A DNA stretch of 64,000 nt from the NCBI GenBank assembly GCA_022447665.1, contig JAKVAQ010000029.1, forward strand, positions 1 to 64,000, in the 5' to 3' direction. This document shows positions 56,875 through 62,692 of the stretch, piece by piece. Within the stretch, counting starts at the first letter, position 1. Every line of letters starts with the position of its first letter. The position numbers and the translations under genes are program-made. Source of the DNA: Crocinitomicaceae bacterium (GTDB lineage Bacteria > Bacteroidota > Bacteroidia > Flavobacteriales_D > Crocinitomicaceae). The notes beneath the pieces were generated by a model. It was given only the letters and a program-made list of their open reading frames with translations, had not been told where the DNA came from and made no database searches.

Positions 56875-57393
56875 TTAAACCGTTTTCAATTGAGGAGTCA
56901 AACACACCACTTGCTCTAAAACACTTTCTTCACCCAAATAATTACTCGCTGAAGAATACTTCCAGTCTTCAATTTTGGTAACATAACCCTCCTCTAATGG
57001 GTTGTTATGAATATATTGAATATTTTCCCAAACGAATTTTTCGGAGTATAATTCAATAGCATGATTTCCCGCCTGCCAAACCTTAAAGTTTTTGTGCTTT
57101 TTAGTCTTATTCGCCTCTGAATTGAACAGCGTAAGAAAATATTCGCGTCTCGATTCTGGATAATTCTCAATATTAAAAATCAATTGTTTTGAGGTGTGCT
57201 TTTTAAAATCCCTGATCACATCTTTTAATTCGAAACCTTCATTTGTATTCACAATTAAATGCAAATGATTTGTCATTAGACAAAAGGCATAAACGTTAAG
57301 TCCTTTGTTTTCAATGCAGTATTTTAAAGAATCAATTATTAAATCCTTATTCCGTTTTCTTGTGAAAACATCTGCCCAACCAACAATCGTCAT
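56875..57393 (-). CDS. REP-associated tyrosine transposase (RAYT, Y1/IS200-like)
   Basis: 172 residues from the ATG at 57393. The HuH motif is TNHLHLIVN (His43, His45) and the likely catalytic tyrosine is Tyr127 in IQYIHNNPLEEGYV, with the conserved KYSSASNY after it. RAYTs are single-copy relatives of IS200 transposases that process REP hairpins. The frame continues upstream without stop for 21 codons to an ATT at 57454-57456 preceded by TAA. This stretch encodes plausible family sequence (KTDGSYYLTMTIVGW), so the native start may be a rare ATT, or the original ATG may have been lost. Confidence 0.85.
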   Translation of the reverse strand: MTIVGWADVFTRKRNKDLIIDSLKYCIENKGLNVYAFCLMTNHLHLIVNTNEGFELKDVIRDFKKHTSKQLIFNIENYPESRREYFLTLFNSEANKTKKHKNFKVWQAGNHAIELYSEKFVWENIQYIHNNPLEEGYVTKIEDWKYSSASNYLGEESVLEQVVCLTPQLKTV

Positions 57394-58296: not shown

Positions 58297-58407
58297 AACA
58301 AGTCAAGTAAATACCAACAAAGACACGTTTATTTAATTTTTTTTTGAAAAACACCAACCCTTCATTTTTAGGATTTGTAATTGGGGAAATGATTAAAACT
58401 ATTTATT

Positions 58408-58734
58408 ATGAAAATTAAAAGATTATTTTTCCTTGTAGCCCTAGTCGGAGGGTTATCTATGGTAGTCGAATCTTGTGTTAAAGATCCTATTGAGGTAGTA
58501 GTAACACCAGAAGATTCAACAGATGTTGGAAGTGGAGGAATTGATGATTCAACTGGAACAGGTGGATCAGGCGGTTCTGGTGTTGGAACAGATTCTACAG
58601 GTACTGGCGGAACAGGTGGTTCTGGTGGATCCGGTGGAGGAACTGACTCAACTGGTACTGGCGGAACAGGAGGAACTGGTGGTTCTGGTGGTGGAACTGA
58701 TTCAACTGGATTCCCAACTGATTCATTAGGATAG
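58408..58734 (+). CDS. Gly/Ser/Thr repeat lipoprotein
   Basis: 108 residues. Lipoprotein signal peptide with Cys23 (MVVESCVKD). Residues about 45-100 are low-complexity repeats built from GTDSTGTGGTGG and GGSGGG units, encoded by near-identical DNA repeats. No globular domain is evident. It may be a flexible surface or periplasmic lipoprotein. A TAGGATTTG sequence upstream (58367-58375) resembles a -7 box with one extra base. The gene is 138 bases before the ECF sigma gene, and a link between them is possible but unproven. Confidence 0.7.
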   Translation: MKIKRLFFLVALVGGLSMVVESCVKDPIEVVVTPEDSTDVGSGGIDDSTGTGGSGGSGVGTDSTGTGGTGGSGGSGGGTDSTGTGGTGGTGGSGGGTDSTGFPTDSLG

Positions 58735-58750: not shown

Positions 58751-58872
58751 TTCACCAACCTTTTAAATTCGACACATGTAATTTAAAGTGTCGGTCCGTG
58801 CAAAAGAAGTTAAAACCAGAAGCCTATTTGAGAATAACAACTTAATTTTCAACGGTAACTGGATTTAATTCT

Positions 58873-59427
58873 GTGGGCAAACTTGAAGACAAATTTAGAA
58901 AAGGCGATAAGCGCGCTTTTGACGAACTATACGGTATGTATAGCCAAGCTATGTATGCCGTATGTCTTCGGTACGCCAAAACGCAGGATACTGCAGCGGA
59001 CATAATGCAAGATGCATTTATTAAGATTTATAAGAATAGAAAAAAGTACGATCCGAAATACCCTATAGCCGCCTGGATTAAGCGCATCGTCATTAACGAA
59101 GCCATTAACCATTACAAGGCAGAACTCAAATTTGTCCCCGCAAAAGATGAGTATTTCGAGGAGCCTGAGTCTATTCAAACCAATGTAGACGGAGAAGAGT
59201 TGAGAAGGATGTTAAAATTAGCGTTGAATGAGATTTCTTTAGGTTGCAGAACGATTTTTAATCTGTACACCTTCGATAATCTTACACATAAAGAAATTGC
59301 TCAGCATTTGGGTATTACGGAGAGTACCTCCAAAACACAATACATGAAAGCAAAGAAGTTAATTCAAGCTTTCTTAAACGAAAAGGGAATTACAAGATCT
59401 CAATTTGTACATGGGGAAAGAGTTTAA
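58873..59427 (+). CDS. ECF-type RNA polymerase sigma factor
   Basis: 184 residues from a GTG. Region 2 with ELYGMYSQAMYAVCLRY and DIMQDAFIKIYKN (the -10 contact helix), region 4 with LTHKEIAQHLGITESTSKTQY (the -35 helix-turn-helix). The first TTG/ATG of the next gene lies inside its 3' end (17-base overlap), so the two are translationally coupled. This is the normal arrangement for a sigma factor and its regulator, and the next gene encodes an anti-sigma-like protein fused to a beta-barrel. Confidence 0.95.
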   Translation: MGKLEDKFRKGDKRAFDELYGMYSQAMYAVCLRYAKTQDTAADIMQDAFIKIYKNRKKYDPKYPIAAWIKRIVINEAINHYKAELKFVPAKDEYFEEPESIQTNVDGEELRRMLKLALNEISLGCRTIFNLYTFDNLTHKEIAQHLGITESTSKTQYMKAKKLIQAFLNEKGITRSQFVHGERV

Positions 59428-60958
59428 AAATATCGAAGACCTATACACGAGCACCCTTGCCGATGAGCAAGTAGCTGTTCCTGCTTCAATAAAAGCTGGA
59501 ATTGACAAGGGGATTGCCAGCGGTAAATGGTGGAGATTAGGTGCTTTATTCTTCCTATTAATAGGATTGAGTGTTGGCGCCTTCTATATTTTTGGACCGG
59601 ACAAAACAGGAAATGAAATCGCTAAGAACACTAATTCGCTTCACGTACAAGAAAATATTAGCAAGAACCAAAACTCAATTACTGGTTCACCTGAAACAGA
59701 AACGAATTCAACATCAGTTTCATATACTGAAGAGGATGACAACAATATGATGAGCGCAACTTCAATTGATGAAGGTTCAGCATTAACGAATAGAACGGAA
59801 AATATTTCTACTACGAACTCAACGAGTTCATCTACCTCAAGTACTATTAGCACTGCAAGTTCAAGAACTCAAAATACATCAACTGAGAATTCAGAAACTT
59901 CATCAAGTAATCTATCTTCGGAGCCTCCTAATACTATGAATTCGACCCCTCCGGTAAATAATGAGGAATTGATCAAAGAAGCTATGAGCATGAATACAGA
60001 CAATATTAATAGCACTGAAAACCCAAGTACCTCAGAAAATACTGGAACTCGAAATAACGAGACAAATAATACTTTAAACCTTTCTACCAACGAAGGCTCA
60101 AACACATTCATTACAAAAGAAAAAGACATGAGTAAAATGGGAATTCTTCCTATTCAAAATTTACCTGCTCGATATGATAAAATCAATATTAGCTATACGC
60201 CTCCTTCAATTGATCCTAAGCCTGCAAAAAGAGAAATAAATGGTTTCTGGATGGTGCATGGAGGACTAGGGTACATGGTAAATAAAGCAGTTCTTTCCAA
60301 TGAATTTCAAGCAACTGGTTCAGATGCTGTAGGTACATATGACGAAAGAAATACCTTAGGCATTAACCTTTCAGGGGGATATTATTTTGGTAAAAAAGTC
60401 GGAGTAAAAACTGGATTTAGCACCTACCAATTAAAAGAAGACTTCTCTTATTCTGAGTCTGAATGGCAACATACTACTGACTCCACTTACGTAGCTGATT
60501 GGGATTATATTTTAGATTCAACAGGTACTGCTATAGATAGCACCGATGTTGGTTATTATGTTTCTTCGCTAGACTCCAACTACGTTAACATCGCCAACTT
60601 TAATGGAACAAATTCACTACGTGTAATTTCAATTCCATTCTACCTTTCATACATGTTTAAAGTAAAAGACTTTATGATTGAACCTGAAATCTATGGTTCA
60701 TACAATTTGATTAGAAATCAAACAGGAACTATTGCACCAAACGGTGTTTCTATCAACTATGATCAGAATTCACCGGTGTATAAACGAAGCTTCTTTTCTT
60801 TAGGGGTAGGGTTAAACCTTCACTACTCACTTGGGAATCATGTATTGCTAAGTGGGTATGGAAGGCTTCAAAGACCAATGGGTAATCTTTTCATGGGTTC
60901 TTTCTCTAAAACCTTAACCACTTATTCATTCGGTGGAGGAATCTCATTTATATTTTAA
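59411..60958 (+). CDS. Envelope-spanning anti-sigma-like/beta-barrel fusion protein
   Basis: 515 residues from ATG 59411; a TTG at 59405 is less likely. Four parts are visible. Residues 1-40 are a short soluble region (NIEDLYTSTLADEQVAVPAS) of the type found at the N-terminus of Bacteroidota anti-sigma proteins. Residues 42-61 form one transmembrane helix. Residues 64-240 are a Ser/Thr/Asn-rich, probably unstructured linker. Residues about 276-515 form an outer-membrane barrel of the PorT/OmpW-like kind, ending in TYSFGGGISFIF. There is no cleavable signal peptide. The layout implies one chain from cytoplasm to outer membrane that could signal to the sigma factor encoded just upstream; this is inference. 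Confidence 0.82.
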   Translation: MGKEFKNIEDLYTSTLADEQVAVPASIKAGIDKGIASGKWWRLGALFFLLIGLSVGAFYIFGPDKTGNEIAKNTNSLHVQENISKNQNSITGSPETETNSTSVSYTEEDDNNMMSATSIDEGSALTNRTENISTTNSTSSSTSSTISTASSRTQNTSTENSETSSSNLSSEPPNTMNSTPPVNNEELIKEAMSMNTDNINSTENPSTSENTGTRNNETNNTLNLSTNEGSNTFITKEKDMSKMGILPIQNLPARYDKINISYTPPSIDPKPAKREINGFWMVHGGLGYMVNKAVLSNEFQATGSDAVGTYDERNTLGINLSGGYYFGKKVGVKTGFSTYQLKEDFSYSESEWQHTTDSTYVADWDYILDSTGTAIDSTDVGYYVSSLDSNYVNIANFNGTNSLRVISIPFYLSYMFKVKDFMIEPEIYGSYNLIRNQTGTIAPNGVSINYDQNSPVYKRSFFSLGVGLNLHYSLGNHVLLSGYGRLQRPMGNLFMGSFSKTLTTYSFGGGISFIF

Positions 60959-61057: not shown

Positions 61058-62692
61058 ATGAGAAAAATTTACACTATTGCGTCTGCAATATTATTTACAA
61101 TAACAAGTTCAATTGGACTTAGCCAAACAACGTATTCATACACAGGAGCGACGGATAATTATATTGTTCCAGCTGGGATTACGACAATTAGCATTGAAGC
61201 TAAAGGAAGTGTCGGTTCAAATGGATCGTCAGGTGGAGTTGGTGGTTCAGGAGCTACCATGTATGGTGAATTTACAGTTGCTCCGGGAGATGTTTTAGAA
61301 GTTTATGCCGGTGGAAATACTGGTGCCGCTCAACACGGTGGAGATGGTTCTTACGTATACAATACAACAACTGCTACACTACTAATTGTTGCTGGAGGTG
61401 GTGGCGGAAGCGGATGGACACATGCTGGACCAGGAGCTCCTATTACAGAGGGTGGTACTAATGTAAGTCCTTCTTCATCATTCGGAGACGGAACACCCGG
61501 TGTTGGTGGAAACGGTGGAATTGCAGGAACAGGTTCTTGGGGAACTGGCGGTGGCGGAGGCTGGCTTACAGCAGGAACTGATGGAGGTGAAACTGTAGGT
61601 GGTGCAGCGCCTTGCAGAGGTAGTGCAGGAAGTACATATGCTGGTGGTGCTGGTGGAGGCTATTCTGGCGGTGCCGGAGTTGCCATGGCCAGTGGCTGGG
61701 GAACTAGATCTGGCGGTGCTGGAGGTTCGTACAATGCAGGTACAGCTCAAGTTAATGTTGCCGCTTCTAACACTGGTTTAGGTGAAGTTACCATTGACGA
61801 ACTTTGCTCGGGCTTAATTACAACGGTTTCTTCGGATTCAGTTTGTGATGGTGAAGAAGTAATTTTATATGCTGAATCACCTGGAACAGGAACAATTACT
61901 TGGTCTGGTAGTATTGCAGATAGTGTTGCTTTTGTTCCTTCTTTAGGAATGACAACATATACTGCTACTAGTGATGATGTTAATGATTGCCCTTTCTCAA
62001 TTGATATTTATTCATTCGCTATACCTACTGTAGAAGCAGGTACGGATGAAAATTTATGCGGGGGAGATTCAGTTGCACTAAGTGGAACAGGAACGGCAAA
62101 TGTTTTTGATTGGTCAGGTGGTATTACTGACGGTGATTACTTCACACCTTCTGCTGGAACTACGAAATATTATTTAACTGGCGCTATTGATTCAACTGGG
62201 TGTTCTGCTATAGACAGTGTAAATGTTACAATGACTGTAGTTAATACAACTGTGACTAGTTCGCCTAGTGACTTGACATCCAATCAAGCTGGAGCGACTT
62301 ATCAGTGGGTGAGCTGTCCTAGCTATAGTGATATATCAGGTGAAACTAGCCAATCGTTTGCTCCATCCAGCAACGGTGCTTATGCAGTAATTGTATCAAT
62401 TAATGGTTGTACAGATACTTCAGATTGTACTTCATTCATGAACAATGTTGGAATTGAAGATAACCCTGATGCTATTATAGCTATATACCCTAACCCAAGT
62501 ACAGGTCAATTCTCAATTGCCTTAACAGGTGCATTTGAATATGTAGTGTACAATACTGCTGGTGAAGAAATCTTTAGAGGTGTTGGAAATGACGTTGAGA
62601 ACGTTGACATGAGCAAATATGCCGACGGACAATATGTACTTCAAATAACACAAGAAGACAAGGTCTACAACGAAATAATAATTAAACAATAA
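61058..62692 (+). CDS. Glycine-rich T9SS-sorted surface protein
   Basis: 544 residues. Signal peptide 1-22 (LSQ). Residues about 25-250 are a glycine-rich beta domain (SYSYTGATDNYIVP, LIVAGGGGGSGW, GGAGGGYSGG), seen in many exported Bacteroidota proteins. Two Ig-like modules follow (about 250-400), then a cysteine-containing repeat and the type A sorting domain (IYPNPSTGQFSIALTG to the end). Export through T9SS and surface attachment are expected. Function unknown; adhesive or structural is an inference. A strong terminator follows directly. Confidence 0.85.
   Translation: MRKIYTIASAILFTITSSIGLSQTTYSYTGATDNYIVPAGITTISIEAKGSVGSNGSSGGVGGSGATMYGEFTVAPGDVLEVYAGGNTGAAQHGGDGSYVYNTTTATLLIVAGGGGGSGWTHAGPGAPITEGGTNVSPSSSFGDGTPGVGGNGGIAGTGSWGTGGGGGWLTAGTDGGETVGGAAPCRGSAGSTYAGGAGGGYSGGAGVAMASGWGTRSGGAGGSYNAGTAQVNVAASNTGLGEVTIDELCSGLITTVSSDSVCDGEEVILYAESPGTGTITWSGSIADSVAFVPSLGMTTYTATSDDVNDCPFSIDIYSFAIPTVEAGTDENLCGGDSVALSGTGTANVFDWSGGITDGDYFTPSAGTTKYYLTGAIDSTGCSAIDSVNVTMTVVNTTVTSSPSDLTSNQAGATYQWVSCPSYSDISGETSQSFAPSSNGAYAVIVSINGCTDTSDCTSFMNNVGIEDNPDAIIAIYPNPSTGQFSIALTGAFEYVVYNTAGEEIFRGVGNDVENVDMSKYADGQYVLQITQEDKVYNEIIIKQ

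Follow-up and report, generated by a model that had tools for sequence, protein, structure and literature searches.

A Dma/Reo-class ECF sigma/anti-sigma pair predicted in Crocinitomicaceae, with a candidate promoter and an upstream lipoprotein gene

The window analysed here is a stretch of 64,000 nucleotides from a Crocinitomicaceae bacterium (GenBank assembly GCA_022447665.1, contig JAKVAQ010000029.1, positions 1 to 64,000 of the forward strand). It contains a cluster in which a small lipoprotein gene precedes an ECF sigma factor gene and a gene for a 515-aa protein that is predicted to reach from the cytoplasm to the outer membrane. The features of this cluster are the following:

58355-58381, plus strand: predicted ECF promoter P1, CAACCCTTCATTTTTAGGATTTGTAAT, 26 nt upstream of the ATG of the lipoprotein gene and conserved in 12 of 12 loci
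58408-58734, plus strand: small lipoprotein gene at the head of the operon; 108 aa, with a lipobox-like VESC and a Gly/Asp/Ser/Thr-rich tail with DST repeats
58756-58782, plus strand: predicted ECF promoter P2, CAACCTTTTAAATTCGACACATGTAAT, upstream of the sigma gene; the second exact motif match in the window
58873-59427, plus strand: ECF sigma factor gene with a GTG start; 184 aa, placed in a putative ECF21-like, "Das"-type lineage from Pfam and NCBIfam matches and a sigma tree
59411-59427, plus strand: overlap of the sigma and anti-sigma genes, 17 nt
59411-60958, plus strand: gene for the predicted Dma/Reo-type trans-envelope anti-sigma factor, with an ATG start; 515 aa
59411-59530, plus strand: cytoplasmic head, residues 1-40, a predicted sigma-binding module (conservation; profile match to the sister group)
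59525-59593, plus strand: predicted inner-membrane helix, about residues 39-61, N-in
59594-60238, plus strand: disordered Ser/Thr/Asn-rich tether, about residues 62-276, predicted to be periplasmic (pLDDT below 50 over residues 63-246; composition)
60239-60955, plus strand: predicted 8-strand outer-membrane beta-barrel, residues 277-515 (AlphaFold, Foldseek, VIA-align; C-terminal Phe)

The product of the gene at 58873-59427 is a plain ECF sigma factor, with matches to Sigma70_r2 (4e-14) and Sigma70_r4_2 (2e-11) in Pfam and to TIGR02937 (9e-28) in NCBIfam. Since the ATG at 59411 lies within the sigma gene, which ends at 59427, the overlap with the next gene is exactly 17 nt, as the original prediction had it. 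Overlaps of 4-26 nt between the two genes are found in most relatives, including one of 17 nt in locus L099, and translational coupling of the sigma and anti-sigma genes through the overlap is likely.

The lipoprotein gene ends 138 nt before the sigma gene. DST/Gly-repeat lipoproteins with a lipobox are encoded just before the sigma gene at 13 loci (the window and 12 relatives), and other lipoproteins are found in the same place, namely FKBP isomerases in Crocinitomix and in a paralogous locus of the window genome (C10), and lipocalin-like proteins in Fluviicola. The 108-aa lipoprotein has no second copy in the window genome, and a Pfam search showed that it is not NigD-like. As for the neighbours of the cluster, the stretch directly downstream of the pair (61058-62692) encodes a protein rich in Gly that carries a type IX type A sorting domain and shows no sign of operon membership, and a minus-strand reading frame at 56875-57393, which by eye resembles a REP-associated tyrosine transposase (NHLHLIV), overlaps a short barrel-like ORF remnant.

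Pfam and NCBIfam searches returned nothing useful for the 515-aa protein, with no Pfam domain match, and an AlphaFold model was built with 39 homologues. The head is modelled as two short helices (residues 5-16 and 25-36) and has the family motif KEFKNI(D/E)DL(F/Y)...P..(V/I)K..ID, with P24, K28, I8, and L11 nearly invariant among the aligned homologues. After the head comes the single inner-membrane helix that had been proposed from the sequence, which AlphaFold places at residues 39-60 and which is most hydrophobic over residues 43-61; 28 of the 39 homologues have more K and R on its N side. From this helix to the barrel there are 215 residues, and disorder is modelled over about residues 63-246. 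The original description of a linker of about 175 Ser/Thr/Asn-rich residues holds for the core of this span (residues 71-245 are 55% Ser/Thr/Asn and 1% aromatic) but not for the whole tether, which takes up about 215 residues. Its contour length of about 77 nm, around three times the periplasm, agrees with the proposal that it is long enough to cross that space, and the tether is long and polar in all 39 aligned homologues (116-274 aa, median 213). The beta strands modelled at residues 278-514, with a pLDDT of mostly 80-97, resemble the OmpA, NspA, and OmpW barrels (best PDB matches with Z 17-18 in Foldseek and VIA-align, the top matches all being outer-membrane barrels), and together with the terminal Phe they bear out the prediction of a complete outer-membrane barrel. 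The AlphaFold model, the positive-inside topology, the conservation, and the restriction of the head to sister proteins within its own sigma lineage all give good computational support to the predicted architecture of one chain reaching from the cytoplasm to the outer membrane.

When 150 genomes of the same family were searched with the protein as query, full-length homologues were found at 24-27% identity, each preceded by a sigma gene. A search of named genomes with the sigma factor as query gave 80 loci, mostly from Crocinitomix, Fluviicola, and other Flavobacteriales. We considered a locus readable if its sigma identity was at least 43% and its contig continued past the sigma gene, which selected 45 loci, one of which was left out owing to Ns in the sigma gene. 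The same head is encoded directly after the sigma gene, or overlapping it, in all of the 44 remaining loci, three of which are broken or cut short further along. The domain order recurs in other Bacteroidota with a constant sigma neighbour, to an extent that goes beyond chance. All of the relatives found belong to the Bacteroidota, with the exception of one record titled Glaciecola, whose loci are nested inside Fluviicola. This record (L129, CP034120.1), titled Glaciecola amylolytica, a gammaproteobacterium, holds several Fluviicola-like sigma/Dma loci, and its label is probably wrong.

According to the original prediction, the outer-membrane receptor and the anti-sigma are separate proteins in the ECF systems known from the phylum. 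This was wrong, as EcfO/Reo in B. fragilis and P. vulgatus, M0N98_03760-61 in P. vulgatus, and Dma1-3 share the trans-envelope, one-chain architecture (PMC13088901, PMC9308784, PMC13114119). According to later papers, the Dma class was first reported in B. thetaiotaomicron (PNAS 2024, 10.1073/pnas.2321910121). Dma2 has been described as having an anti-sigma domain, a transmembrane helix, a long disordered tether, and a C-terminal barrel, and its deletion phenotype depends on its sigma factor (J Bacteriol 2026, PMC13088901). A 2022 study of P. vulgatus found that the toxin BcpT induces the sigma factor 33-fold, in an envelope-stress response that is common to the BamA-binding bacteroidetocin A (PMC9308784). 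The output reported for Dma1 and EcfO is a NigD-like lipoprotein.

For the lineage of the window sigma, we built a tree of 111 sigma factors, in which paralogues from the same genome were gathered through Sigma70_r2 matches. The window sigma lies inside a cluster of 86 sigmas (support 100/98), nearly all of whose partners have a head, a transmembrane segment, and a tether; conversely, almost all sigmas with a partner of this kind fall inside it. Three sigmas from Parabacteroides gordonii and six paralogues from the window genome are part of this cluster, while some 24 other ECF sigmas of the window genome fall outside it; the suggested ECF21-like assignment rests on the clustering with the sigmas of Dma-like pairs from P. 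gordonii (100/98). The P. gordonii genome has three sigma-plus-barrel pairs, and downstream of one of them a NigD-like lipoprotein is encoded (PF22221 1e-10). A profile of residues 1-40 matched the head of the sister group, which includes P. gordonii, over its whole length (Prob 96.9, E 1.5e-10), whereas there was no match (Prob 2.5) to 14 other anti-sigmas of the same genome, of the FecR type or other types. The barrel profile of the window family also matched the Bacteroidales barrels that include those of P. gordonii (99.6%), but such barrels are widely related, and the head match is more telling for class membership. The 515-aa protein and its sigma factor thus seem to form a Dma/Reo-class pair in Crocinitomicaceae, the class itself being already published and the kinship with Dma1, Dma2, and Reo being judged through a P. 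gordonii bridge and other Bacteroidota.

The window pair resembles Dma1/Das1, Dma2/Das2, and Dma3 in its predicted N-terminal sigma-binding part, single membrane helix, long disordered tether, and C-terminal barrel, as well as in the adjoining ECF sigma gene and the Bacteroidota host. It differs in that its host belongs to the Flavobacteriales, another order than that of B. thetaiotaomicron, and in the Gly/Asp/Ser/Thr-rich lipoprotein gene upstream, whereas NigD or BT_1557-type neighbours are found in Dma loci. In addition, the sigma factor is fused in Dma3 but encoded by a separate gene in the window. In EcfO/Reo (B. fragilis, Phocaeicola vulgatus; PMC9308784, PMC13114119), a sigma factor is likewise followed by a trans-envelope anti-sigma with an outer-membrane barrel, and the active system upregulates its own sigma gene and has surface lipoproteins as output. 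The predicted outputs of the window pair are similar, although the lipoprotein gene is nigD in EcfO/Reo and would encode a low-complexity lipoprotein in the window. An outer-membrane event also controls an ECF sigma in FecI/FecR/FecA-type signalling, as we propose for the window, but three proteins and a TonB-dependent receptor are involved there, in contrast to a single chain here, without a FecR domain or a TonB-dependent receptor. A FecR-type cell-surface signalling anti-sigma was accordingly rejected for the 515-aa protein, which has no Pfam domain and carries the barrel in the same chain.

A first k-mer search upstream of the sigma genes yielded coding repeats of the lipoprotein and no promoter, but these repeats led to the lipoprotein and, upstream of its gene, to the real motif. 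CAACC(Y)TT-N12/13-TGTA(A/T) is present upstream of the DST-type lipoprotein genes in all 12 loci examined, and CAACC-N16-TGTA is present in eight of them, where shuffles reach 3. The strict form of the predicted ECF promoter motif, CAACC(Y)TT-N13-TGTAAT by sequence match, has an exact-match expectation of 0.01 for the whole window. It occurs four times in the 4.06-Mb genome, against 0 in a reversed control, and three of these sites are at sigma-Dma loci. The site at 58355 (lipoprotein gene) was used in building the motif, while those at 58756 (sigma gene) and C10 42886 (paralogous sigma gene) are independent of its making. The fourth site, C32:2215, was dropped, as it is antisense inside a 472-aa reading frame.

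An independent test was carried out with a slightly looser form of the motif on 39 related loci outside the motif discovery. This form was found 16 times at up to 1.4 kb upstream of the sigma gene on the sense strand and 0 times in the other 549 kb of strand, which corresponds to a binomial p of about 1e-17 if the related loci are treated as independent. It heads 16 of the 39 operons, the usual site being 25-45 nt before the first operon gene. Together, the sites and the enrichment provide good evidence for the predicted positive autoregulation of the operon and cross-regulation of the C10 paralogue. A search of the genome for further regulon members with one mismatch gave 24 sites versus 10 in the reversed control, so its results are mostly noise. 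Two of its minus-strand sites precede lipoprotein genes: one (L223, G000:C17:66082-66108), at a distance of 25 nt from a gene for a 337-aa lipoprotein, likely marks a regulon member, and the other (L229, G000:C34:152188-152214), at a distance of 49 nt from a gene for a 206-aa lipoprotein, possibly does.

The paralogous locus (L064, G000:C10:41011-43803) is a sigma/Dma pair with FKBP-type isomerase lipoproteins at its head, and the exact motif copy before its sigma gene suggests cross-regulation by two sigmas. Further pairs of a same-lineage sigma with an anti-sigma/barrel-like protein are found in the window genome at L057:4536-6645 (C41), L066:3128-4862 (C1), and L071:2267-4665 (C16). We also observed an LVIVD-repeat lipoprotein near the sigma/Dma pair at L066:5575-6846 and, in P. 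gordonii, at L192:3779-5053, a linkage that is kept across orders (Crocinitomicaceae, Parabacteroides).

In other anti-sigmas with the same head, the membrane helix is present but the barrel is replaced, and the protein ends in PKD domains together with a type IX sorting domain of the CHU_C/TIGR04131 kind (PF13585 1e-14). Two are encoded in the window genome, at L054:4893-6026 (G000:C44) and L055:4933-6255 (G000:C52), and others are found at L158, L159, L160, L162, L163, L168, and L147, elsewhere among the Flavobacteriales as well as in a single Bacteroidales genome; their sigmas fall inside the same 86-sigma cluster. Multiple origins of these variants are unsupported, as a single origin was not rejected (p-AU 0.29). 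A literature search found no account of an anti-sigma with PKD and type IX sorting domains, and the architecture is possibly unreported. In such an anti-sigma, the type IX secretion system may serve as the anchor or as the route of tethering.

We consider it very probable that the window encodes a Dma/Reo-class pair in which the head holds the sigma factor, an outer-membrane disturbance frees it, and the sigma factor drives its own operon. For the binding, the topology in vivo, the signal, the release step, and the role of the lipoprotein, we infer the following course. The first 40 or so residues of the 515-aa protein would hold the ECF sigma in the cytoplasm, while the rest of the chain would cross the inner membrane once, pass through the periplasm as a disordered tether of about 215 residues, and end in the outer membrane as an OmpA-like barrel. 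A disturbance at the outer membrane would act as the trigger; barrels that assemble slowly or not at all, or some other envelope stress, are the most likely cause, and a ligand is a possible one. The signal would pass along the chain and free the sigma factor, with regulated proteolysis as the most likely means once the chain is strained or has failed to assemble. It could then transcribe the lipoprotein gene at the head of the operon, its own gene, and the sigma gene of the paralogous pair from CAACC(Y)TT-N13-TGTAAT, resulting in positive autoregulation and more surface lipoprotein. Proteolytic release is favoured because the responses of P. vulgatus to envelope damage and to the BamA-binding bacteroidetocin A overlap (PMC9308784), and because the paralogous operon starts with a folding-factor lipoprotein; the presence of an FKBP isomerase there would fit envelope-folding stress.

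It is conceivable, but in our view improbable, that the chain stays intact and that tension in the tether, as the outer membrane recedes or the barrel is bound or trapped in a vesicle, deforms the head and frees the sigma factor. Such gating by force or distance would agree with a tether that is disordered, always long in the 39 homologues (116-274 aa), and kept although its sequence changes freely, and a worm-like-chain estimate puts the force on a 215-residue chain spanning 20-30 nm at about 4-7 pN. Nevertheless, as the contour is about three times the periplasm, the chain would be slack unless shortened, and the more than twofold variation in length among homologues argues against a finely set ruler; for these reasons, we rate release by mechanical pulling alone as less likely than release by proteolysis. 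Moreover, membrane-bound anti-sigmas elsewhere usually act by proteolysis. We are similarly doubtful of the broader idea that joins release of an intact tether by tension or distance to a head, helix, and tether acting as a general chassis with interchangeable outer anchors, either a barrel, as in the 515-aa protein, or PKD with a type IX sorting domain, as in paralogues from the same genome.

Cleavage could also be a normal step that makes two proteins of the barrel and the membrane-anchored head, with the signal working through the fragments. Proteases readily attack long, unstructured linkers rich in Ser, Thr, and Asn, and a VGA motif within the membrane helix would suit signal peptidase, but we think this unlikely, given that the head, helix, tether, and barrel are in one frame in all readable homologues, that no split-gene locus was seen except for the broken or cut ones, and that the published Dma/Reo models retain one chain (PMC13088901). 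Far less plausible is the view that the protein is an ordinary outer-membrane barrel whose cleaved signal sequence is merely odd, and that its gene lies beside a sigma gene by chance. OmpA-like barrels are common, and there is one hydrophobic segment near the N terminus; however, the head has a conserved motif of its own, which is absent from FecR-type anti-sigmas and matches the heads of the sister pairs, the sigma neighbour is invariable, and the gene overlap recurs.

As a Dma/Reo-class pair, the window locus extends to free-living Flavobacteriales a class that has so far been studied in gut Bacteroides and Phocaeicola. In the accessible Dma/Reo literature, we found no earlier account of a promoter sequence for this sigma lineage or of the recurrent operon layout that places a small lipoprotein gene under joint control with the sensor pair, and the predicted promoter and operon layout make the regulon and the signal testable. 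The type IX-tailed sister architecture, in turn, would link a sigma factor to the cell surface in a new way, and if the type IX system exports the tails while the head stays in the cytoplasm, it would represent a second build of a surface-tethered anti-sigma.
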